A stretch of DNA of 64,000 bases from Cinnamomum chago (Eukaryota; Streptophyta; Magnoliopsida; Laurales; Lauraceae), in the NCBI GenBank assembly GCA_038049695.1, contig CP142451.1, positions 9,422,001 through 9,486,000 on the forward strand, in the 5' to 3' direction. A program made the translations under genes and the position numbers. This document shows, in pieces, positions 5,674 to 60,414 of the stretch. Position 1 is the stretch's first letter. Each line of letters opens with the position of its first letter. The notes below the pieces were generated by a model that saw nothing but the letters and a program-made list of their open reading frames with translations, did no database searches and had not been told where the DNA came from.

Positions 5674-7417
5674 ACCTGATTTAGAGATGTCAAATGGTTC
5701 GGCCCGGCCCGGTTCGGCCCAGCCCAGCCGGCCAGTCAACGGGCCGTGTCGGGTCAACGGCACGGCCCGAGACACGGGCCGTGCTGGGCCGACGTAGCCA
5801 GGCCTGCCAGGCCCATGGGCTGCCCTCTGTGGCCCGCCAGGCCTGCCAGGCACAACCCGCTAGGCACGACTCGCCTGGCCCGCCCACAAGTGATTTTTTA
5901 AAAAAAAATTATCCATTTTACCCCCCCAAACAGCCATAAAACAATCATATAAGGGGTATTTTGTGTCCTTTTCAATTTTTCAAAGTATATAATACTCTAA
6001 CCCTCTTATTCTTTTTCTAAATTTATTAGTGTTATTTATACTACTCTAAGTTTCTAACCCTCGAATATTTCTACGTAAGAAGTGTATATCGTGACAAATT
6101 GCTAAAAATTGCTTTAACTTTGCTAAAAATTGGATTAAGTCTTAATAACATATAAATAAAAAATTACCAAGAATTTAAAAGTACTAAGCCAAAAGGTTAA
6201 AATAACATGATGGGGTTGGTTTTCTTTTAATTATTGGAACTTTCATGATTCCATCCATCCTAACCCCACTAATACAAGTGCACCTAGGTGGGCCCCATGA
6301 GATGTAGTAGGAAATCCCCAATCAATCAATCAATCAGAGTAACTGAATGAGTCTCTTTTCTGATGATGGTGGAACTGGGGGTATGGACCATATGACATGC
6401 TAACTGACTTGAGGTATATGAGGTTGGTAATCTGATCAATTAGCATCTTTGTTTCACTTTCAATGACTGCTGCTTCAGAGTTGAGAGTTTCAAATTTTAA
6501 TCATGGGGGTAATGGCTGATTCATCCACAAGCCTTTTTATCTTTTCTCAGTCTTCCTTTCCGCCATTTGACATGTGCCCTGATAGGTTAAAAAATGAATC
6601 TCCCTTTCTAGACACCTCTTGCTAGTCATTGGTCTTTTTATATCATTATATCAAGGCATAGTGCCACCAGTTTCAAGTATTTCACCATAAAAATTGCAAG
6701 AAAAGGCACATTACAAAAATCACTTCATTGTTGAAAAGCAATAAAGTACTTAATTTTCATTCATACCCATCCAGACAGAAATGAGAGAACAGACTCATTC
6801 AAGTTGAGACAACCAATGAAAAAATCATATCCATATGGATTGCTTGCATGCAGGAAACTGAAATCCATAATCTTAACAACAACAACAACATTAATGAAAA
6901 GAAATAGCAAGAACTAATCTGACTGAAAAGAAAGAAAGAAAAGAAAGAGAGAAAGAAAGAAAAAACAAAGAAAGAAAGAAAGAAAGAAAAAAAACAAAGA
7001 AAGAAAGAAAAAAAAAAAAAGAAAGAAAGAAAAAAAACAAAGAAAGAAAGAAAGAAAAAAAAAAACAAAGAAATAAAGAAAGAAAGAAAAAAAAACAAAG
7101 AAAGAAAGAAAGAAAGAAAGAAAAAAGAAAGAAAGAAAGAAAGCAAAGAAACAAACAAACAAACAAACAAAACAAAGAAAGAAAGAAAGAAAGAAAGAAA
7201 AAAAAAAAAAAAAAAAAACAAAGAAAAAAAACAAAGAAAAAAAAAAAAAGACCAGGCCCAGCAGGCCCGCCCGCCCCGGCCCGCTCCAGCTCGCCCCATG
7301 GCGGGCCATGCCAGGGGTTTTCCCTGGCGGGCCGTGCCGACCCGTGGCACGGGTGGGCCGAAGCTGGGGTGGGCCGGGCCGACCCGGCACGACCCGTTTG
7401 ACATCTCTAACCTGATT
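5674..7417. mobile_element. Non-autonomous hAT element with 8-bp target duplication
   Basis: Element proper is 5682-7409 (1,728 bp). Ends are inverted copies of TAGAGATGTCAAA, each followed by a GC-rich subterminal zone dense in GGCCC/GGGCC motifs (5700-5890 and 7250-7400). It is flanked by an exact 8-bp direct repeat ACCTGATT (5674-5681 and 7410-7417), the target-site length of hAT transposons. No transposase frame exists inside, so it must rely on another copy. The centre is AT-rich non-coding DNA plus a long GAAA tract. Confidence 0.9.
6925..7249. repeat. (GAAA)n purine tract
   Basis: About 325 bp that are almost pure purine on the plus strand (GAAA units broken by A-runs and ACAAA). Long minus-strand frames of Phe/Leu/Ser here are artefacts of this tract. 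Confidence 0.95.
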
Positions 7418-8001
7418 ACCTCGTATCAGACCTAAAACCTCCATTTTTCTGGATCTGGATTACTGTTTGGAACAATCCGGGAAAGCTCGTATAAACAGGA
7501 AAACCTTATTTTGACCATTCAAGGGATGACACATTTATTTTGTATATGTTTTGTACTTAAAAGACGAATAGCACCATTTGTTAAGTCAATAAGCTCATGT
7601 GTCACGCTCTTATTTGGACTAAGTAGGGGATCCGGTTCCCCATTTTTTAAGTAAAGCATTCATTTTTCAGACAATATATCACATTAAAAGCATTTTAATT
7701 CAAAACTTTTTCCTTTTTTTTTTTAAAAAGCAACTACCTTTATCCACTAAAATACAAAAAAACTCCACTTTTCCATACAAAAAGTCAAAAAGATTTTATA
7801 ACAAACAACTAAAAATAAAATATTATCATAACTCACATATATTTTATTCTTTCTTTAAAATCAACTTTACTTTACTTGACTCTATTAGTAGAGTTGCCAA
7901 ATTGGCCTAAGAGTCAGATGATGATTGGGCTTGGATAGGGCCCGCATCTCGGATCCGATTGGAAATCAGGTTTGGGTCTAGACCCAAGCGTGCTATACGT
8001 T
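7418..8001. other. AT-rich intergenic DNA
   Basis: No gene or repeat boundary recognised. Confidence 0.35.
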
Positions 8002-24356: not shown

Positions 24357-26754
24357 TCATATCAGGCCCATACCTCTCAGGACAGGGTGGGATGTTGGGC
24401 TAGCAGAGCCTTGCAGCAAACTAGCCAGCACTTTCAGCTGGTCTTGAATAATTGACTGAGCTCTCATCAACGAAGGCTTGCAATTCCGATGCTTACTGTC
24501 ATTCCGAAGGGTCCAGATAGCGGAGGATGATTGAAAGAAGATCACCGCTGCCAGCTTTCTCTCAATGGGGCCAGTACCCTGAGATAAGGCTGACCAAATA
24601 GGCGAGGCAGACAGATGAATGGAAGGAAGATTAACTCCCAAACTTAAAATCCACTTCCAAACCTGAATTGCAAAGGGGCAGGAGAAGAAAAGGTGGAGAT
24701 CATTTTCTTCATTGTTGAGACAGAGACAGCATCTAGACGCCAAGGAGCTTCCTCTTTGTTTAGCCCGGCTATCCGTAGGAGTTTTCCTGTGAAGGAGGCG
24801 CCAGGAGAAGCAAGCCAGTCTAGGGGACATATACTTGGACCAGACCAGACCATCCCAGGGAACAGCAGGGAGATTGGCCCTAAGTAAATTCCAGGCCTCA
24901 TTGAGAGAGAGGATACCTGAGGAATTCCCCTGCCATTCAATGGAGTCAGGCGTAGAGGAAATACTTAAGGGTAAGAGAGAAATAGACTGCTGGAGAAAGG
25001 AACTCAGGTCAGCTGGGAGGTGGCTGGGGAGGGTCCAGGAAGAATTCTGGATGAAGGCTGCCAGCAGATCCGATTCAGGGAGCTGGAGATGGGGAAATCT
25101 GGGAGCTATTGGACCTTTGCCTGTCCAATTGTAATACCAGCTGCTGATGGAGAGCCCATTCCTTATCTTCCAGATGCTGCCACTAAGGAGTAAGTGAGCC
25201 AGGGGCCTGATTCGCTGCCAGATGCTGGAACCTCTTTTTGGCGTGCCAGGGGACCAAATCAAAGGTCTGAAGTATCTATCTCTAAACCAATTTGCCCAGA
25301 GGGAGTTTGAGGAGGCCGCCGACCAACCAAGCTTTAGCATACAGGCTTCATTGTAGACCTTAACTCTTCGAAGGCCAAGCCCTCCTTCTGATTTTGGCGA
25401 GCAGACCGTACCCCAGTTAACTTGACCATTGGAATTGTCTGGCCCAGCTGACCAGAGGAAATTCCTCATCAGTCTTTCAATCTGAAGGCAGGTTTTACTC
25501 GGAATTGGGACTACCAGGGAGGTGTGGAGGGGGATGGAGGAGAGCACATGCTTTACCAGAACAAGTCTACCCGCAAAGGATAAACTTTTGGCTTTCCAAC
25601 CCGCTAGCCTAGATCTTATGGAGTCCATTATCCGGTTAAAGAAGATGTGCCTCGAAGATCCAAGAAAAAAGGGGACTCCCAGGTAGGTGGAGGGGAAGTT
25701 AGCCTGAGGGATGCCCAGGATATTGGGCATCTTCTGCGTTTAACCAATTATGAAGGTCAGCTTTGGCAACATTCAGCTCTTGGAGAAGGGTGTCACTTGG
25801 ATTGGCTTCGAATTCTGTTTGCTTGGACAAGACCAGGAGCTCAGCTTCAGCTATCTTGGTCTTCATTTGCCCAAATACATCCTTACTCCAAACCTTGAGA
25901 TTGTACTTCAGGTTCTTGAGCTTGTTTGCAAGGACGAATTGAGGAGTCCCCCTGCAAGGAGAGGCCCAACTGGAAGAGACAACCTCTGAGAAGGAGTCAT
26001 GCAGCAGCCATTTTTCTTCAAATCTGAATGGAATGGACTTGCTGAAGGATGGATTAGTCCTATGGAATAGTAAAATTGGGCTGTGATCAGAAGCTATTCT
26101 GGGGAGGTGACTCACTATAGGATCATCAAAAGAATCTAACCAGAGAGAGTTTGATAAGGCTCTGTCTAGTCTTGCAGCAACCAGAGCCATTCCTTGCATG
26201 TTATTTGCCCAGGTGAATTGATTGCCTTTAAAGCCAAGGTCTTGAAGCCCAGTGGCCGTGATCATTTCTTGAAAATCCTTAACTGAAGTGGGGGAGGGGG
26301 GACGGATACTGAGTTTTTCTTTGGCAAGGAGGATGGCATTGAAGTCCCCTATTACACTCCAGGGAAGAGTAGTAGAAGATCTATTCACTAGATAGCTCCA
26401 GAGGTCCCTTCTGAGTCTATAGTCTGTGGAGCCGTAGACCCCTGTAATGACACAGGTGGGAGAAGAAGAGGGATCGGCTAGGGAGATGGAGATGTGCTGG
26501 GAGGAACTATCAAGAAGGGAGAAGGAGAAGTTAGAGAATTTATGACAGAGACACTAGAGAGTATTAGTGGGATTGGAGAAGGAAGGGTTGAATTCAAAGG
26601 AGTGCTTTCTGGCTTCTAGAAATGAATCCAGACTGGCCTTAGGTTCAGAGAAAAAGATAAGGTCTGGAGAGTGGGAGTCTAGGAGATGAGACAACATGAT
26701 TTTTGTTGGGGAATTATTAATTCCCTTGCAGTTCCAATATAAGACTTTAATCAT
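24357..26754 (-). pseudogene. LINE ORF2: endonuclease + C-terminal domain, reverse transcriptase deleted
   Basis: Starts MIKVLYWNCKGINN at 26754, the opening of an apurinic-type endonuclease. A TAG codon at about 26556 (after PTNTL) interrupts the frame; downstream the same frame continues (SPTCVITGVYGS, then SVIGDFNAIL with a catalytic Asp, and ASDHSPILL with the catalytic His). At about 25730-25735 sequence ending LHNWLNAE is joined, out of frame, to LGIPQANFPSTYLGVPFFLG, which in intact elements follows the reverse transcriptase. The palm with its YADD box is thus absent. From 25730 to 24357 the C-terminal part is open for 457 residues and includes the zinc-binding motif (CCLCLNNEENDLHLFFSCPF). 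Plant L1 ORF2 is about 1,300 residues; about 500 appear lost. Confidence 0.85.
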
Positions 26755-28415
26755 TGGTTACAGTGAGGGGGAGGGGGACCAGCAGAGCTTCTTGTCTTGG
26801 GGCCAGAGGATGAGGCTAGTTTTAGCTTTGGTTTTCTTTTAGGTTTCAAATTGAAAGGAGATAAGTCAACTGTGAGGGAGGAGATCTGAGTTGTAGGGGG
26901 AAAGGCCAAAAGGGGACTATTGCTGGCTGAGGGGGAGGGATGCTTGGTGGGACTGGGGATTATATTTCCATCGCAATTGGCTGAGGGGGAGGGATGCTTG
27001 TTGGGACTGGGGATTATATTTCCATCGCAAAAGGGGGCCTCTGATCTGTCCTCCAGAATGGAGAAGGGGTTAGAACATTCTATAGCTGGAGCTGGGATAC
27101 TCTCTGGGATTATGGGAGGAGGGGGCAAAGGGGAAGGGACTGGGTTGACTAATGTCTGAGTGGCTATTGATGTGGTGGAAGGATTTACCTTAGGAGGGGA
27201 TGAAACCTGAGGGCTGTCTTCGGTTAGTTGGAGGGATCCCTGAGACGAGTTGGTAGTTGAAGAAGGATGAATGAGTCTATCTGCTTCTATCGGGGTTTTC
27301 AGCAAACCTGGCTTCTGACGAAATGGGCACTTGCTGGAGATGTGGCCAACCACTAGGCATTCAGCACAAGGAGTGTTCTCATAATAAACTTCTACCTCCA
27401 CTGTATCCTCCCCTTCCAATTCCACTGAAAGGATATTAGGCCCTATCTTAGTCACATCCAGAAGAACCTGCACTCTTGCAAAGGTTAGCATTCGCTGTTT
27501 AGCAGTAGTTTCATCTAGGTGCAGAGGCTTACCGACCGATGCTGCTATGGAGAGCAGGATGTCACTGCTCCAGCAGTGATAAGGCAAGCCTTTGAGGCGA
27601 ATCCAGACTGGCGCTTCTGCTGGCCAAGGACTCTCCGCTTGACCTGGAGACCAAGGACGAAGAAGAAGCTTTTTCTTGTCGAACCGGAGAGGGCTTTGGC
27701 TGATAAGGGCATCTCTGTCTGCCTGAGAGTTAAACCTAAAGATGAAATTCCCTTTCTCTGTGAGGGAGATTAGGCAGGGCAAGGAGAGGTTCCAAGTTGC
27801 AGACACCCATTGCTCCAGGGATTCCAGGGTTGGGCGTCTTCCCACAAATTTCCCCAAGGCGGAGAAGGTGAAGGAGTCTTTGCTGTTGGTGACCATTTGC
27901 TTAGGGATCCGAATGGTAAGTTTCCCGTCAATCCAGACTGCTGGGGGGATGGCAGGGGGGAGAGTAGACCATAGGAGAGAAGCATTTGGCGAAGGATTTG
28001 GGTGGGGATATGGGAGGGAGGAGGTTCGAGGAGATTGGGTTGGGGTGAGGGCCTGTGGTTTGGGGGTAAGACTCCTCAGGTGCTGCTGTAGCAGATGAAG
28101 CTGGTTTGGGTCCCAAGTGACCGGAAGAGGGGCCAGGGAGGGAACCTGGGTATCAGGGGTCACAGGATTGGGAGTGGGGCCGGGTGAGGAGTGGGGGATG
28201 GAGGGATTTGGGGGATTGAGGATGGGAAGGTTTTGCTCTGAACCATTTAGTGGAGAGGAGAGGATTCGCAGAGCAGACTGAGATTCAGCAGGTAAGGCCA
28301 AGGCGATGGAAGCTTCTGCTTGCTTTGATTGAGATAGATCCGGGAAACCAGGCGGAGAAATGGGGGGGGCGATCGGGGGAGCAGTGGGAAGGAAGGGAAC
28401 AACACCGACTATCAT
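26751..28415 (-). CDS. LINE ORF1, nucleic-acid-binding Gag-like protein (554 residues, intact frame)
   Basis: Proline-rich N-terminus (1-160), then a DUF4283-type region (about 160-325, with FVGRRPTLESLEQWV and APVWIRLKGLPYHCW), then one CCHC zinc knuckle (C350, C353, H358, C363: CAECLVVGHISSKC), then a Ser/Pro-rich tail. Such proteins coat the LINE RNA. The tail holds a perfect-length 18-residue tandem repeat (CDGNIIPSP...). The stop codon overlaps the ORF2 start as ATGA. Unlike ORF2 this frame is unbroken. I chose the first ATG; it lies close to the likely 5' end of the element. Confidence 0.85.
   Translation of the reverse strand: MIVGVVPFLPTAPPIAPPISPPGFPDLSQSKQAEASIALALPAESQSALRILSSPLNGSEQNLPILNPPNPSIPHSSPGPTPNPVTPDTQVPSLAPLPVTWDPNQLHLLQQHLRSLTPKPQALTPTQSPRTSSLPYPHPNPSPNASLLWSTLPPAIPPAVWIDGKLTIRIPKQMVTNSKDSFTFSALGKFVGRRPTLESLEQWVSATWNLSLPCLISLTEKGNFIFRFNSQADRDALISQSPLRFDKKKLLLRPWSPGQAESPWPAEAPVWIRLKGLPYHCWSSDILLSIAASVGKPLHLDETTAKQRMLTFARVQVLLDVTKIGPNILSVELEGEDTVEVEVYYENTPCAECLVVGHISSKCPFRQKPGLLKTPIEADRLIHPSSTTNSSQGSLQLTEDSPQVSSPPKVNPSTTSIATQTLVNPVPSPLPPPPIIPESIPAPAIECSNPFSILEDRSEAPFCDGNIIPSPNKHPSPSANCDGNIIPSPTKHPSPSASNSPLLAFPPTTQISSLTVDLSPFNLKPKRKPKLKLASSSGPKTRSSAGPPPPHCNQ
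26925..27032 (-). repeat. 54-bp tandem duplication inside LINE ORF1
   Basis: Two 54-bp units (26925-26978, 26979-27032) differing at few bases, keeping frame and doubling an 18-residue Pro/Ser segment. Confidence 0.9.
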
Positions 28416-28561
28416 GGTATGTGGGGACTTGTTCTAGTTGGGTTGTGTAACTAGAACAATTAATTAATATGATCTAATCTTGATTTTATTACGATGAGGA
28501 TCACAGAATAGAATTTCAATTTGGGGGATATCTAATCCATGAAATGCTTCTTCTATCCAAC

Positions 28562-28771
28562 GAGTCTGGATCACCTATCGCATTTATTATATTTTTGCGG
28601 TGAGTGGACCAATAATACTCCGTCACCTCATCCAAAAATTTAGGCGATTCTCTTTCATCTGATTTAAACTTTTTAAACTTCAAAATCACTTAAATTCTTG
28701 GATGACATGGCAGAGTATTATTCGTCCACTTACGGTGAATGTATAACAAATGCGATAGGAGAGCCGGACTC
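28562..28771. mobile_element. Mutator-type MITE with long inverted arms
   Basis: Starts GAGTCTGGATC and ends GGCTCTCCTATCGC-inverse...CCGGACTC; the two arms match over roughly 90-100 bp (CTATCGCATTT, AGTGGACCAATAATACTC, TCATCCAAAAATTTA). Shares the GAGTC(T/C)GG terminus with the element at 57314. Flanks (CTATCCAAC and ATCCCCCAA) do not give an exact 9-bp duplication. Confidence 0.65.
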
Positions 28772-29712: not shown

Positions 29713-30249
29713 TAACTATGGTGATGATTAGGACCTGTTCATTTTATCTAAGTTTTGATGGTTATTGAAAGAAAAGCTAACATTGAGGTATGAAGTGATG
29801 CTAAAAAAAAAAAAAAAAACCGATGCATATAAAACACTTGGAAAAGAAGTACAGAGCACGAAATCCCACCATATAAAACATGATTTAGTTAATGAGTCCA
29901 TTTGCTCTTTTTCCCACTTCAAAAGTGAAAATGCTTCACTTTTTTTGAAACTTCTATTGAACTTACTATTTATGAGTCTAATTTGCTCATACCACACTGT
30001 CATAATTCATATATAAACATCATAAAATAATTTACTTCAATCAAAATGAGAACTGCCATTGAACTGATCACTTCTAAATTAGAAGGTTACCCCTCAATGA
30101 GATAATTTACAAATTAAATTGTGATCAATCTAAATATGAAATACACTTTGATTAAAGTGAGATTTGGATGATTGTCAGTGCTAGGAATTTCATGTGTTGG
30201 TTAATTCATGGGTTGGACAAAACTTTAGTACAAATCGAGTTGTAATTTT

Positions 30250-30960
30250 TATTCTTTTTAGATATGGATGGTGATAGTACCCCAAGACAGAGGTCGAAGA
30301 CTCATGGACGCACAAGATACTTCAAGATAGAGCTTAAAGAGTCCTGGCCACACATAAACTCTAGGTTCAAGCCAAAATCCAACGAGCAGGTTTGCTATGG
30401 TAAGCCTGGACAGAGAGACAGCTCGCTATAGCGAACTGGGATTTTCTGCCAACGAAAAGTACTCCTGATTTCACTGAAACTTCAGTTTTTTGAGTTCTGA
30501 TCGAATCGGAAACCTCATGCACGACCTTTGGACTATATAAGCATCTTATTTCTACCCTAGAACTTACTTTTCTCCTATCAAAAGATTGAGAATCTTTTGA
30601 GAGATTTTTTAGAGTTCTAATTATTTAAGATGATTATTGAAGAAGAAGATTTCTTCTTTCTTTATTGCTTATTGAAGCACCTTTAGAGGCATCAATGTGG
30701 TTTGAGTTTGCATCACTTTGGGAGGCATCAAAGTGTGGCCAGATCAAGTACGGTAAAGATGAATGGTGGGTAGTCGGTAAGTCCATTTCAGTTCTTAAGT
30801 TGAGTTGCAAATAAGAAATGTTTTGTGAGTCTTTATAACTTTCGTTTTATAGTGCTTAGTTTTTTCAGTGGTTGCGACCACCCGTGATTTTTTTCAAAAA
30901 GGGTTTCCCACATTAAAAAACTTGTGCCTCATTTCTTTTGTGGTTGATTAATTTTTTTGA
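30250..30960. repeat. LTR-like sequence, copy A
   Basis: Shares ordered motifs with 40290-41060: CTCGCTATAGCGA, a TATATAAGC-like promoter (30534), and near the end AAAGGGTTTCCCAC followed by TTAA. That order is common in plant copia LTRs. Boundaries not resolved and no internal region adjacent; could be a decayed solo LTR. Confidence 0.4.
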
Positions 30961-31900
30961 TATTAAGCTAATCCATTCTAATAATTTAAAAAGGGAAAAC
31001 CTTCACTCAGTTTTAAGATGACATGTGGTGGCAGAAGCTTGGACTTATCTTAGATGGCCAGTTATGCTAATTTTAAGCATCTTAGTGTCAATTCTACTGG
31101 TTAAGTGGTGGGGTGGGGATAAGTCCTCATTGGTTAGAAATGATTTATAACTAATCAATCTACAACCCAAGGCCCACCACAATTGTGACAAATGAATCAT
31201 TGCACAGTACTATATTGGATGCTTGGTGTAACATCACAATAATGATGTCCCACCGGTACACAAGCCATTCTGACCAGACAGTGATGACTCCAGACTGGAG
31301 TATATACGCCCAATCTTCTTCTGCCTGCTCATATCATATTTACTTACTATTTTCCCAAAGTATTTACTCAACTCATCTCACTCATGCCCCACTGTAGACG
31401 ACTTATTTGAGCTCCTGGCCACTAGGCCAGCCTAGAACGAAAAAAAAAAAAAAAAAAAAGAGGCCCCAGACTTCTCTGGGCATAGGCTTCGAGCACAAAA
31501 TTCTCTGATGCCAGCTGCACATTCTGTAAATGAGCTCACATATTAAATGCAAACATTCAAATACACCACAATTGTTAACCTTGTGCATCACATGTTATAT
31601 ACATGTGATCAATCTTACAAAATTTGGAGAAGACCCAAACTAGCAGATCAAGGAGGAGCTACTGGTGAGAGTGATTGATTTTGAGTAGCTTAGATTTAAA
31701 ATCTAAAAGACTGGAATGTTGTGTTGTGGGCTTGGAATATGAGCATCCAGAATTAGTAAATGGGGTTAGTACGAGGCTTGCATAAAACGTCGTCGTTTCT
31801 ATAAAATGAGAAATGTCCGAAGCGTTTTTCACCTAAACCCGTGCGGGGATGCCCTTTAAAAGTTACGATTTTTAGGGTTTTTGGGGATGGGATGGATGGA
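30961..31900. other. Intergenic DNA upstream of MIR172
   Basis: Holds a 19-A run at 31441-31459 after GGCCAGCCTAGAACG, possibly a retroposon tail. The last part would contain distal MIR172 promoter elements. Confidence 0.4.
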
Positions 31901-31940
31901 GATGTGTAACTGCTTTCAGTACCATACAGCTCAGCATCAG

Positions 31941-31973
31941 CCAATAGCAACATCCTTTCTCTTCTCTATAAAA
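31941..31973 (+). promoter_or_regulatory. MIR172 core promoter: CCAAT box and TATA box
   Basis: CCAAT at 31941-31945 and CTATAAAACC with TATAAAA at 31967-31973. Transcription would start near 31998, at the beginning of a CT-rich leader (31999-32070), as is common for plant microRNA genes. The hairpin follows about 750 bp downstream on the same strand. Confidence 0.6.
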
Positions 31974-32480
31974 CCATTGCAGGAAATACCCCACCATCAT
32001 TTCTCTCTCTCTCTATCTCTATCTCTATCGATCAGTTTCCTCTTCTTCCTTCTTTTTCTCTCTGATATTTTTACAGTTCATGGAAGAGAGGAAGAGAGGA
32101 AGAGAGAGAGAGAAAAATAAAGAGTCCCAGGCTATACGATCTGGGACTGTTTTTGTTTCATCGTTGTCTGTATTTCTTTCCTGCTTTGGTTTTTTTCATA
32201 TGGATGGGTGTTTGGTTTTTTTTCATGGAAATCTGGGATGAATCGGTATTTCCGGCGAATTCCTTGCCTGATCTCGATCAACGACGTACGACCCAGTAAA
32301 ACCCATTCCTTGAATTGAGAGAAAGAACCCCTTGTGGGTTCTGGGTTCTGGAGCTAAATATTTATTGTCTTTCTGCCTCTAGATTCGGTGGGAAAGTGAA
32401 GCAAAAAGAAAGTTTTAGAATTCCAGGTCCGAACACAAATACACACACGGTTTCTTTTGGAATTCGTTCACTCCCTCTCA

Positions 32481-32484
<4 letters not shown>

Positions 32485-32512
<28 letters not shown>
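32485..32512. repeat. (CT)n microsatellite
   Basis: About 14 CT units in the MIR172 leader region. Confidence 0.9.
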
Positions 32513-32513
<1 letters not shown>

Positions 32514-32769
32514 GGATTTCATTTCCCTCTAGATTCCTGTTTGTTTGGCCCACATGTCATCTTTTTTCAATTGGCCAATGGCAACGAACCACGTCATCAG
32601 GTGCTCATGTCCAAAAATCTCAGCCTGTAGTCTTCTTTCTCTTGGTGATGGTTTTCTTTCTCCCTTTCTTTTTTTTTTTTTTTTTTTCCATTTTTTTGGG
32701 TGATTTTGTGGGTTAAGAGTCTTTTTAATATGGTATGCATGGATTAATGGACAGTCGTTGTTTGCGGGC

Positions 32770-32790
32770 GTAGCATCATCAAGATTCACA
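32770..32790 (+). ncRNA. MIR172: miR172* (star strand)
   Basis: 21 nt beginning GTAGCATCATCAAG and ending ATTCACA; complementary to the mature miRNA with a 2-nt 3' overhang. Confidence 0.9.
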
Positions 32791-32844
32791 AACATATGCA
32801 TGTTATCACATGGAGAGAATGGTGATGATTTGTTTTTTGGGGTG

Positions 32845-32865
32845 AGAATCTTGATGATGCTGCAT
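32845..32865 (+). ncRNA. MIR172: Mature miR172
   Basis: 21 nt beginning AGAATCTTGATG and ending ATGCTGCAT, matching the deeply conserved miR172a/b form. A TG precedes it, so the 23-nt variant starting TGAGAATC is also possible. Confidence 0.97.
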
Positions 32866-32880
32866 CGGCAATCATCAACT

Positions 32881-34984
32881 TTATGAAAAATATTGAAACC
32901 CGGTTCTACGGATCTTGCCTGCTTGCCTTCCTTCCATCTCTCTTCTGACGAAGGTAAATCATTTTTTTGGAATTAATGGACTATCTCTTGATGATACTGT
33001 AACTCACTTTTGATGGGGTTTTTTTTTTTTTAGTGTTCTCTAGTGGAGAAATGGATAGATGCTGATTCTATGTACTAGATCTGGAGCTTGATGAATGAGC
33101 TAAAGATGGGGATGAAAGGTAAAAGAAAAGGGAATTTGATCTTTTTTGCTGGGTATAATCCTTTTATGATTCTTGATGCAGTGCTAAATAGTACTTTTTT
33201 TCTTTTCTTTTTTTTGTGTCAAAGATTATTTGGGCTTTGTTATTCGCAGTCGAGAAATTTGAGGGTCGTTGTAATTGTACTTTGTTGTCATTCTTACATG
33301 AGATTGGCTTGGATCCTTGAATTCTGAACTTGGAACTACCATCATAACTTGAATGAAATCGTTTGGATGGCTCCTGACTGGTTTGTTGGGACTACATTTA
33401 ACACTTATTTCCAACTGCTGCTCTCTTTCTCTATGTGGGTGAGTAGGGGAGTGTGTATTCGTATCCTATACAATTTGAACAACTTGGTACTGTATAAAGA
33501 TGTGATCATTTCTCATGTTGGTTCTTTGGGTTGGAATGGTATTGTTATTCCCTGATTTGTCCTTATCTTTTACATTTTGAAAAAGCCTGGGGTATCAGAA
33601 GGCTTACTTTTCATTTTTCATATCTAAAAGAACCTATGATCTCATTCTATCCGGAAAATTCTCAACAAGATACATCTGATCTAAAAAATGGACTGTGAAT
33701 CTGACTCCATTTCCCAAGACAGAAAACCCTAAATCCTCTCATTCTTATTGAACATAAGCATCTTATGATTCTAACTCAGCTTATCATTTCGGACTTAAAC
33801 AGATCCACCTCAAAATGAGTTTGTTTCCTCCACACCAATTTTACACTACACAAAAGGGTCTTTTTTCTTCTATCTCAAGGTGGGGTTAACCTTTATCGCT
33901 AAGTCAACTAGAATTAAGTAATTTCTTGAGAATTGAATCTTGCCGAAACCTCCCAATAATCCAAGATTAGGAGATTCTTTGTTGTGTATAAGTCTTTGAA
34001 AGGTTACAAATAATAAGAAAAACGATGTCCATATGGTGTGATTGATACCTTTATGGAATATTCAATTCAGAGCTCAAGTGTTGACTCATGCCTTACTTTT
34101 TTCTTCACAAAGATTTTGAATGTTTTCTGTTCAGCCATTTGCAGAGCTAGCTTTGCAAATCCATTTGCACAGCCATTCAGTACATCCTTACTATTTTATT
34201 ACCAATCACCTCCTACCAAATTTTACAGCTAGTTGTCTCAGAACTGAAGTTCAATCAATTTTAATTTCTTGCATCATGATTTGGACCATTTTAGCACTGG
34301 ATGTTTAAAGCAAACGTCCATACAACATTGACAGAGATTAACAGCTAAATCCGAGTTGGTCAAGGCTATTGGTCTTTGATTAACTATAAACCCCCCCGCT
34401 CCCAACCCAAAATAAAATAAAATAAATAACCAAATGGGTTCCTCTAGGTAGAAGGTAATAGAATGTTGAATGTTATGCAGAATGGTGAAGATTCTGTTAG
34501 TTAGGGAGTAGGACTAAGATCTTGCATCTTAAAAACTTGCTATCTGGTAATGACTTCCTAATATCATGCCAAAGCAACCATCTCATTTCTCATGTTTTAT
34601 CCTTTGTAAAATCGGGGTACATTGAACATTTGTCCTCTATTTGAACCACTCGAAGACAGTAATCCTCACATTAGGCAGAAGAAATGTGATGAGTGTAAAG
34701 ATGTTTAGTTTCAGCATTTGTATTAATATCCTGATTCAATTTTTAGCAAGTTCTCTTGAACTAACTCCATTTGGATGTCTATCCTGTCCTTTTTCCATTT
34801 GTGCATGATGAGATACTGGTTGCTAGTGGTAATATCAAGAGTGGCCTAGCATTTCCTATAGCATATGCAGTTTATCACTGTATGTATTTAAGCATATGTA
34901 GTTTATTGTACACATACGATCTAAGCTCCCAAATTGTTGTTCTACTTGTGTGTGGGTCTAGACCTAGAGATTTAACCCATGAGC
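32881..34984. other. Region downstream of the miR172 hairpin
   Basis: Probably includes the rest of the primary transcript (for example a donor-like AAGGTAAATC at 32952). No protein exon recognised; poly-T at 33018-33031. Confidence 0.35.
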
Positions 34985-35278
34985 ATGGTTCAAAATAAAT
35001 GTCGCTACGTAGCGTGGCAGCCGCATTATTGGTCATATCAGTTGAATCCGCTATGCTATTTTGAAAATAACGGCTTTACAGGCTAAAACCTAATAAAGCC
35101 AAGCAATTTCAATTTAAAATATAGCTTTTCCTATTTCTTTTCCTCAGTAATCTTTTCTAAAATTTCATCTACCCTCATATGGTTCTATATCACCTCAATA
35201 GCCGTCCGTATCGCCTCAACCGCTATGTAGCGTTTTAACTGTTAGTCGCTACACCTGCCGGAATAGCTATTTTGATCC
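34985..35278. mobile_element. MITE with GCTATGTAGCG motifs
   Basis: Ends are inverted copies: GGTTCAAAATA at the left and, inverted, GGATCAAAATAGC at the right. Subterminal copies of GCTACGTAGCG/CGCTATGTAGCG lie inside both ends. CCATGAG occurs just outside both ends (34976 and about 35286), hinting at a longer target duplication. Confidence 0.55.
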
Positions 35279-38157
35279 TTGCCGGCCATGAGAAGTGGGC
35301 CTCAATCACCACATTTGATGAAGATTTAATTAATTAATTAATTAAAGTGGGGAGGACAAACAGTCAATAAGTTCTCATTGGTACCCAAGGCACTGTTCTT
35401 GAATATTTTTCATCCTTGTTTTATTCTCTTAAGCCAGTTGTCTCTTTTGTGCTCATAAGTTGAGGCTTCTTGGAGCATCATGTGGTAACTTGTATTTGAT
35501 TCTATTTTCTTTTATCTTCATGTAATTTCCAAAGGAGGAGAAGAATAAACATTCCATCTGGTTTTTTAGTGGATTTTCTTTTACAATTGCTCCATGGGTA
35601 TTTAATTCTGATTGAAAGGTTTCTCACATAATCTCATGTCGTGGAATAATTACTTGGTGCCACATAGGATCTTTCAGTTGTGCATTTTCTTCAACTTATG
35701 GATGCCTGCTTGTGAATTTATTTCTCTGTTTTATTCACACATAGTTGTGAAGGCATCACAATACTTCCATACATATTCAAACTGTTGTTTTAAAGATTTC
35801 TTGTCGACTTCTGTTGATATTGCATGTATTGTTGATCTTTTATATGAATTTTTACATTCTAAACATAATTTGTTAAAACCTGACTGGGATTAAACCGACT
35901 TTGTGGGCAGTCCATTCCATATAGAAGACCATGAACTGCTAGTATTACACTTTCAGCGAAGATTTATTTGGCTGGGAGCAAGTTTTGGCATCTTCAACCA
36001 TCTAGGTAGGTTTTGAGAATCATTGCAAACCATGTGAATTTCAGTCAGTTGTATTCCTGAGGTTGCATTTGCTTGTGTTGATGATGATGATGATGCATGT
36101 TTGTACGTGTACAAACTACAAAAGCATTTGACAGGGGGTTGGTGGGTTATGTTTACGTAACTGTTACCGGCCATGACCGAAGCAAGCTATGTATAGTAAC
36201 AGTTTGTGTAGCATGATTTGCTTCCTTGTCCTTTGTGATTTACCCTTTACGAGTGGGAAGGCCACACCATGAAACCCACTTGGACGCATGCAAAACATTA
36301 GTAGGTGGATGTTAGGTTTTAAAGGTTTTTTGAAGACCTACATGCATATAGAAAAAGGGAATGATTGGTTCATAGGAGTTACACACTAATTTAAGGAGCT
36401 ACATTAATTTAAGATAGAGTGTCAAATTTGGACTTGTGACAATTGGAGACCATATTTTTAAGTATATATTGGGGTGAGACCAATAATATCAGGGGTAGCC
36501 GATGCCATTATCCAGGAATTCTCCAAAAATCTTTATATGTGTGTGTGCATGTGGGTGTGCGAGTTCGTGTGCGCGTATTGGTTGTTTCTTATGTCTTGAG
36601 ATTGAGCTCTTTTTACTACACATCTTAAATGGGAAATACCCATTTAAGGATGGCTTGGCAATGGCACAAGCCAAGAGAAAAATCCGTCCTCATGCCAGTT
36701 CAAGTCAACTGAGGGTGCGTTTGTGTAGCGTGGCTGCAGAAATCCTTTCTCCCCATATAGATGCATAAAAACTTCTCTATGGATAATAAGGGAAATCAAG
36801 GGAAAAAGTTTTCTTTTTCTGGCAGCAACTTGGATGCACAAACAATGGAAAAGCAAGACCACAAAAATCAAAATGTTTTTCATTATTATGGGAAAAACAC
36901 ATCATATGAACAACTCTTGAATCAATACTGCCAGCCTTAGAATCACTAACCCAACGGAAATAGGCTTATCATTCTTTTCTCTTTTTTGTCCCTTTTTTTT
37001 TAAGGATATACAAGAAGGTTGCAACACATTCACTATGTAGGTGTATAGTATAGCAAGGGTGATAGATATAAGGGGGTTTTGACGTATTAATCCTCTTTAA
37101 ATACAACTTTTCTAATTTTACAACCAAAGCTTAGATAATATGTCACCAAAGTCACTTTCATTGTGGGACAATTCCATAGTATCATGGAATTTATCAATTT
37201 TCATTACATATATATTGTTCTCATGATATCATGGGATTTAGGGCAAAAAGTAAAAGAAAAAATGCTGAGTCAAGTGACTCTAGTTACATTATCTGAATTT
37301 TAGTCATGAAAATTGAGAAAATTGGTTTTAAAGATAATTAATATGTCAAAACACTTAGATATAAATCCATTGTCAGAACATGCATTCTGCACATTGTTAT
37401 ATCTCATTTAGCCTCCTTTTCTTTTCTTTTCTTTTTCTTAGAAAACCAAAAATAATTATTGACCTATTTTCTTGTTTAAATAAATCATAATCATCATAAT
37501 CTTCAGAGACTTATTCAAAATATGTTGAGGTTACATGAATTTTGTTTTGCCATACCATCTATCTAGGGTGAAATCCTACGGGACCCTTGACTATGGTTAT
37601 GTTTATATTATTAAATTCCATAACACAGAACTAAATGAATTTCATAACATATTTGGTTGAGAGAGAGAGAGAGAGAGAGATTTGTTAACACCCTTGACTG
37701 TGGTCTATGATTGTAAGCAAGCCAAGCTTGCCCAAGTCGAGCTAGAGAGGAAAGACGTGGGAATGGTTCTTCTCACTTTATCTCTCCTAATATGAGATAG
37801 AGGTGTGGTTTTGCTGTCCTCTCTTTTGGTTGTAACCCTTCTCCTCCTTCAATTCAATTTTTGCAACTTAACCAAAAAAAAAAAAAAAAATCCAAGCTCA
37901 AGGTTGGGTTGTTTAATAATAATAATAATGGGCATGGGCTTGAATTTGAGGGTGAACTGCTATATAATGTTAACTTAATTGAGACAACTTTACCAAAACA
38001 AAAAATTGAGACAAACTCTAGCTAAGTTGATCTGACCCACTTACTGATAAGTGCAAAATTTCTGTGACAGACCTTCCTTATTAGTGCACCATCTTGCATT
38101 GGGGTCATTGAAGCACAACTTGTAGATGTACGCCCAGTGAAAATGGGGATGATGCAA
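35279..38157. other. Intergenic DNA, no gene seen
   Basis: (TTAA)n at 35326-35344; GATGAT repeat at 36078-36095; a likely MITE end pair GGTGCGTTTGTG (36714) and CACAAACAATGG (about 36836); (GA)n at 37661-37681; poly-A at 37875-37890 after a TGTAACCCTTCTCC stretch that may be a retroposon 3' end. Confidence 0.35.
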
Positions 38158-47637: not shown

Positions 47638-53310
<5,673 letters not shown>

Positions 53311-53449
53311 TGAAACGAAGACGATTTTTTTTTTTTTTTAATGCAGGCGGCGCTTTCGGTTTCGGTTTGGGTTTGGACTTCGTAGAATTCCCGCGATGTC
53401 TTCTCTACCTACAAGCAAAAATGGGAGATTAGGTACACCAAAAATCAAG

Positions 53450-59755: not shown

Positions 59756-59904
59756 TACTTTTAGACAAGGTCTCACCCTTGGTTGCACATATATACCTTG
59801 GAGTAGGATTTGAATGTTATTGAGGTGGTACTTATATATCACACCAAATCCAATCCATTTTCTACACAAAGGGGATGCTGGCCGAATCAAAAGCCCTAAC
59901 TTTA

Positions 59905-60414
59905 GGGCCTTTTTGGATGCACAAAAAAGTACAAGAAAATAATATTTTTTAGAATATAATCTTTCATTTTTTGAAGAATAAAATATTGTGCGTTTGGTAA
60001 CTCAAGAAAAACTTGAAGAAAATATTCTTTTCTTTCAAAAAGCACAATATTCTCTCCTACAGCTCCCCCCTGTAGAAAACTTTCTACAAGATAAAAATCT
60101 TTCAAAATGACGATTACAAAGTGGTAGAGTAAAGTAAAGACATTGGTTCAACAAATCCATCATAATGTGTATGTTTACATATATGGAAAAGTAAAGTAAA
60201 AGTAAATCTCACAGGACGATAAAGGTGGGGTAAAGTAAAGGTGGGATAAAGTACATGGTGAAGTAAAGTGGGAATGAATGGTAAAGTAGTTTTTTTTTTA
60301 CTTTACTTAAACATTTTATCGTAGTTTTATATAGTAAATAAAAAGTGACTTGTTTACAGGTGTGGTAAAGTAAAATAAAGATCGATGTCATATCATGGTA
60401 AAAGATGAGGTAAA
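59905..60414. repeat. AT-rich repeats incl. GGTAAAGTAAAG tract
   Basis: Starts with GGGCCTTTTTGGATGCAC, a common MITE terminus, followed at 60190-60400 by many GTAAAGTAAA units on both strands. Confidence 0.4.

Follow-up and report, generated by a model that had tools for sequence, protein, structure and literature searches.

The hairpin at positions 32758-32875 of this stretch raises the questions of whether it is a genuine MIR172 gene, from which strand it would be read and where its primary transcript would begin. The window, that is, the whole stretch of DNA that was analysed (C1:9422001-9486000, 64 kb), belongs to a genome of 1,061,006,199 bases (~1.06 Gb) in 14 contigs. MIR172 is deeply conserved and regulates both flowering time and the floral organs, and an ORF-based annotation would miss the copy on C1. 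The value of the locus lies in annotating the MIR172 set of this genome, and no new question on microRNA function is raised by it. The results described below make it almost certain that a plus-strand MIR172 gene is present at 32758-32875.

The MIR172 hairpin and its duplex

The whole window was scanned with Rfam release 15 at gathering thresholds, which for MIR172 (RF00452) is 70 bits. Two matches were obtained, both on the same hairpin, one per strand. With E-values up to 1 the number rose to 15, the other 13 scoring below the gathering scores of their families, and ARAGORN found no tRNA or tmRNA genes in the window. Both scans agree with the original prediction, which had described this hairpin as the only clear regulatory RNA gene of the window. 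The features of the hairpin are the following:

32758-32875, plus strand: MIR172 precursor hairpin (Rfam RF00452, 88.6 bits, E 1.6e-18, model positions 1-114 of 114)
32845-32865, plus strand: mature miR172 (3p), AGAATCTTGATGATGCTGCAT, exact sequence on the 3' arm, paired with the star strand
32770-32790, plus strand: miR172* (5p), GTAGCATCATCAAGATTCACA, with 32770 paired to 32863 and 32790 to 32843
32753-32769 (5' side) and about 32865-32880 (3' side), plus strand: imperfect lower stem below the duplex, from the inverted repeat and the fold

The covariance-model match is full-length and well above the gathering threshold. Allowing up to three mismatches, the mature 21-mer has a single match in the window, where 0.01 would be expected by chance. 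Checked pair by pair in the fold, the miR172/miR172* duplex has 2-nt 3' overhangs at both ends, and the canonical duplex proposed from the letters is thus borne out by the terminal pairings given above. The mature strand is paired throughout except at its positions 1 and 20. In the fold of 32740-32890, the region that had been singled out for checking, the two strands lie opposite each other; its energy on the plus strand is -52.6 kcal/mol (shuffle mean -34.07, sd 3.32, z -5.58), and none of 200 dinucleotide shuffles was as stable. The inverted repeat comprises 32753-32790 and 32843-32880, with 11 lower-stem pairs in the fold, and its 5' lower-stem segment, 32753-32769, is a possible signal for the first cut. 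The letters of GTAGCATCATCAAGATTCACA also appear in the available part of a paper on Rehmannia glutinosa miRNAs (PMC3702588).

The MIR172 family in the genome and target-type sites

The genome contains at least seven MIR172 loci, on C1 (the window locus), C2, C3, C4, C5, C9 and C11; this count is a lower bound because the genome search scores best candidates only. AGAATCTTGATGATGCTGCAT is identical in six of the seven loci listed, the mature sequence on C9 beginning with CGAATC, and the star strands predicted for C11 and C9 have the same 21-mer as that of C1. When the hairpin regions are compared by BLAST, C3 comes nearest to C1 (84.2 bits), followed by C9 (70.7 bits), all others scoring at most 61.7 bits. 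Outside the hairpin region, a comparison of 30001-35500 with the flanks of the other MIR172 loci gave one match, of 71 bp, between 30789-30857 and the C2 flank. The microsynteny comparison of the window covered ~75 kb surrounding C3 and C9 and ~16 kb surrounding the four remaining loci. Collinear gene order was not seen by eye in these regions, the non-hairpin matches being scattered and several window segments having multiple matches, in the manner of repeats; therefore, no positional paralogue of C1 is named.

Of the 12 places returned by a genome pattern search for target-type sites, with one mismatch allowed, half carry CTGCAGCATCATCAGGATTCC/T and the other half are MIR172 hairpins. The six target-type sites have two to three mismatches to the perfect complement, and each has a frame reading AASSGF. 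In three of them (L021, L022 and L023), motifs of the AP2 second repeat (among them RGVTLHKCGRWEARM, YLGLFD, AYDKAA and AVTNF) are found upstream on the same strand within the 3 kb scanned. Such motifs were not found on the site's strand in the 3 kb around L020, L024 and L025, whose AP2 exons may lie farther off. At the sequence level, target sites in AP2/TOE-type genes thus appear to be present in the same genome.

The MIR172 identity is well supported because the Rfam score, the exact mature 21-mer, the duplex geometry, the six further loci and the target-type sites all concur, and the locus stands as originally named, with the shuffles and the paralogues on the same side. The C1 locus is a typical MIR172 gene and belongs to a known family. 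It shares with RF00452 the full-length model match, the canonical mature 21-mer on the 3' arm and the target-type sites in the genome; it differs in a loop and an upstream sequence of its own, although all tested features are within the usual range of the family and show no departure from it. The mature sequence is identical to that given for grapevine MIR172D, AGAAUCUUGAUGAUGCUGCAU, in the accessible part of PMC2831844, a likeness that covers the mature sequence.

In plants, miR172 is transcribed as a primary transcript, processed by DCL1, loaded into AGO1 and represses AP2-type mRNAs. The analysis itself yielded the hairpin with its duplex, the MIR172 family and the target-type sites, and from that general knowledge we infer the remaining steps. 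The primary transcript would be made by Pol II from a start downstream of the TATA box at 31967, most likely around 31996-31999. DCL1 would cut the hairpin 32758-32875 to release the 21-nt duplex of miR172 (32845-32865) and miR172* (32770-32790), and AGO1-loaded miR172 would repress AP2/TOE-type mRNAs at CTGCAGCATCATCAGGATTCY sites.

The putative promoter and the transcription start

The original prediction endowed the locus with its own TATA promoter, and its positions for the mature and star strands, the CCAAT motif, the TATAAAA and the CT-rich tract from 32000 are all exact. The upstream elements are:

31941-31945, plus strand: CCAAT motif upstream of the TATA box, a five-base motif and candidate element
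31967-31973, plus strand: candidate TATA box, TATAAAA, placing a putative start at about 31996-31999
32000-32120, plus strand: candidate 5' leader of the primary transcript, CT-rich and then GA-rich
32501-32610, plus strand: block resembling C3 upstream sequence in local alignment, with a second CCAAT, CCACGTCA

From the start proposed at 31998 it is 760 nt to the beginning of the hairpin and 847 nt to that of the mature strand. A composite element was defined as a TATA-like box (TATAWAW or TATTTAT) followed by a C+T content of at least 70%, no more than 1.5 kb upstream of the hairpin, the C+T content being taken over 100 nt beginning 30 nt after the first T of the box. Both the motif and the 0.70 threshold were chosen after seeing the C1 locus, whose own value in the candidate leader is 0.70. 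The composite is found upstream of four of the seven MIR172 loci (C1 at -791, C9 at -770, C5 at -351 and C11 at -708 from the hairpin) and is absent from C3, C4 and C2, both at 0.70 and at 0.65; on C3 there is a TATATAA at -889, with a lower C+T content afterwards (0.55). Control rates at 70% were 0.039/kb in the window (both strands, C1 site included) and 0.006/kb in the paralogue flanks; at 65% they were 0.086/kb and 0.081/kb, respectively, with the same four loci found. This distribution makes the proposed promoter plausible on sequence grounds, with motif and threshold set post hoc.

Alignments of the segment from -1000 to -600 gave a mixed picture. The similarity between C1 and C3 was not significant (129 of 200 shuffles as good), that between C1 and C9 was a weak match (1/200), and C3 and C9 were clearly similar (0/200) in a shuffle test that is not strict, since C3 and C2, from different sub-groups, also beat all 200 shuffles in this segment (18.0 vs 17.5). 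The motifs of the TATA promoter are therefore present and recur as a composite at four of seven loci, whereas paralogue similarity is absent with C3 and weak with C9, leaving the promoter plausible but unproven. On balance, the TATA box at 31967 probably sets the main transcription start of the MIR172 gene, its position being deduced from the motif.

A real MIR172 gene with its main promoter elsewhere, for example near the block 32501-32610 or below a further TATAAAA at 31800, is a less probable arrangement, yet one to be taken seriously. Among four upstream segments compared with C3, only the one containing this block beats all 200 shuffles, and multiple starts are normal for MIR172: within the parts available of the respective papers, four start sites were mapped for maize pri-miR172c, with TATA-like motifs at two of them (PMC2773440), and three 5' ends are related for Arabidopsis pri-miR172e (PMC3558349). 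Against it, a TATA-like box with a CT-rich leader occurs at four of seven loci, at varied distances, and the TATAAAA at 31800 has no CT-rich stretch after it (C+T 0.50). A conserved stretch of the transcript itself would explain the block equally well. The local score of the block between C1 and C3 is 26, compared with a maximum of 23 in 200 shuffles, and the three-way alignment of C1, C3 and C9 is collinear there, but between C1 and C9 alone it is not significant, 95 of 200 shuffles doing as well. The first 12 bases are a CT repeat. Under stricter scoring the signal of 32530-32625 is weaker, its score being reached by two of 200 shuffles for C3 and 31 of 200 for C9. C1 and C5 also beat all 200 shuffles in the segment holding the block, probably due to simple CT repeats. 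The alignments are consistent with a candidate proximal regulatory element or a conserved transcript segment.

The start below the TATA box at 31967, which we prefer, would lie upstream of the hairpin, and in maize pri-miR172c and peach pri-miR172d the hairpin also lies below the mapped starts, according to the portions of PMC2773440 and PMC9252053 at hand. The words around the two CCAAT motifs of the C1 upstream region are alike (GCCAATAGCAAC at 31938-31956 and GCCAATGGCAAC at 32569-32590). The distal CCAAT word has a 16-base match upstream of the C3 hairpin, at -257, which is not significant (E 0.61).

The primary transcript

The locus had been described as not being a protein-coding frame, and Pfam at E 0.1 indeed gave no match for the three long stop-to-stop frames at 31972-32238 (+), 32300-32713 (+) and 32532-32972 (-). 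The proposed leader contains a 53-aa ORF at 32080-32241, and a perfect 8-bp inverted repeat is located at 32122-32147 (AGTCCCAG ... CTGGGACT). Peptides from pri-miR172 have been reported from soybean, grape, rice and Arabidopsis, as summarized in the accessible text of a review (PMC11055055). By eye, neither the first five ATG frames given for C3 nor the first five for C9 include a counterpart of the 53-aa ORF, and a conserved miPEP from the leader ORFs was discarded on this basis. It is very unlikely that the locus would yield a product beyond canonical miR172, either a miPEP from the 53-aa ORF or, through transcription of both strands, a miR172-like RNA from the minus strand, altered at its 3' end, alongside the canonical one.

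Splice-like motifs delimit a possible short intron downstream of the hairpin:

32954-33033, plus strand: short intron candidate on the 3' side, GAAG|GTAAAT ... TTTTTTAG|TGTT

On C9 there is a similar donor, yet only ~45 nt separate it from the next acceptor-like site, and on C3 no acceptor-like site was found in the 900 nt scanned. In the available part of the maize study, RACE placed an intron upstream of the hairpin in one gene and downstream of it in 15 genes (PMC2773440). Peach pri-miR172d is given as intronless in the corresponding portion of PMC9252053, a difference from C1 with its possible 3' intron. Upstream of the hairpin, the acceptor-like CTCTAG|ATTC ending at 32532 is common to C1 and C3, the aligned C9 sequence being GCAG|ATTC. 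An upstream intron is not claimed because none of the three leaders (C1, C3 and C9) gave a donor-like site matching the motif applied.

The strand of origin

Read on the minus strand, the hairpin scores 73.9 bits and also exceeds the Rfam cut-off for MIR172, as expected of a near-palindrome, and the minus-strand fold is stable as well (-39.8 kcal/mol, z -5.26, with none of 200 shuffles as stable). There is a precedent in grapevine miR172a and b, for which the authors later favoured the strand opposite to the first prediction as the likely source, as told in the part of PMC2831844 available. Production of the microRNA from the minus strand is, however, extremely unlikely here: the plus strand scores higher and folds more stably, and in the window the canonical mature 21-mer is found on the plus strand only. 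These three features rule out a minus-strand gene as the first choice. The genome search for MIR172 listed 14 matches, corresponding to the seven loci, each matched on both strands. All seven listed loci exceed the cut-off on their better strand and two of the seven on the other, so the double matching is a property of the near-palindromic hairpin.

Other elements of the window

The chance that a plus-strand MIR172 gene is only mimicked here, by a decayed or transposon-made inverted repeat, is negligible: repeats are common in the window, and a LINE-like element lies at 24360-28433, but the mature strand, the star strand and the fold are all intact, in agreement with the six other loci, and outside the hairpin region 30001-35500 has the one flank match with C2 mentioned above.

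The LINE-like retrotransposon at 24360-28433, on the minus strand, was recognized by its frames, with DUF4283 and zf-RVT matches and a middle frame without Pfam match; coding pieces similar to it are found near the MIR172 loci on C2, C3, C9 and C11. Next to it, at 28603-28730, there is an imperfect inverted repeat that on each strand resembles plant miRNA families, with scores below their thresholds (52.6 bits for MIR7504, cut-off 83). It looks more like a MITE, a transposon-like hairpin, than a miRNA gene, and a genome search with RF04134 gave no matches, 28603-28730 itself also remaining unmatched, so that this search carries no information. A segment of ~520 bp at 59901-60414 is 94% identical to a stretch ~21 kb from the C9 MIR172 locus and is probably a recent repeat. 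At 52912-53408, on the minus strand, there are open frames of 142 and 160 codons without a Pfam match at E 0.1, part of one frame being reminiscent of a plant thioredoxin-like protein. Finally, 6799-7459 is a low-complexity tract rich in AAG/AAAG, in which several frames are open on both strands.
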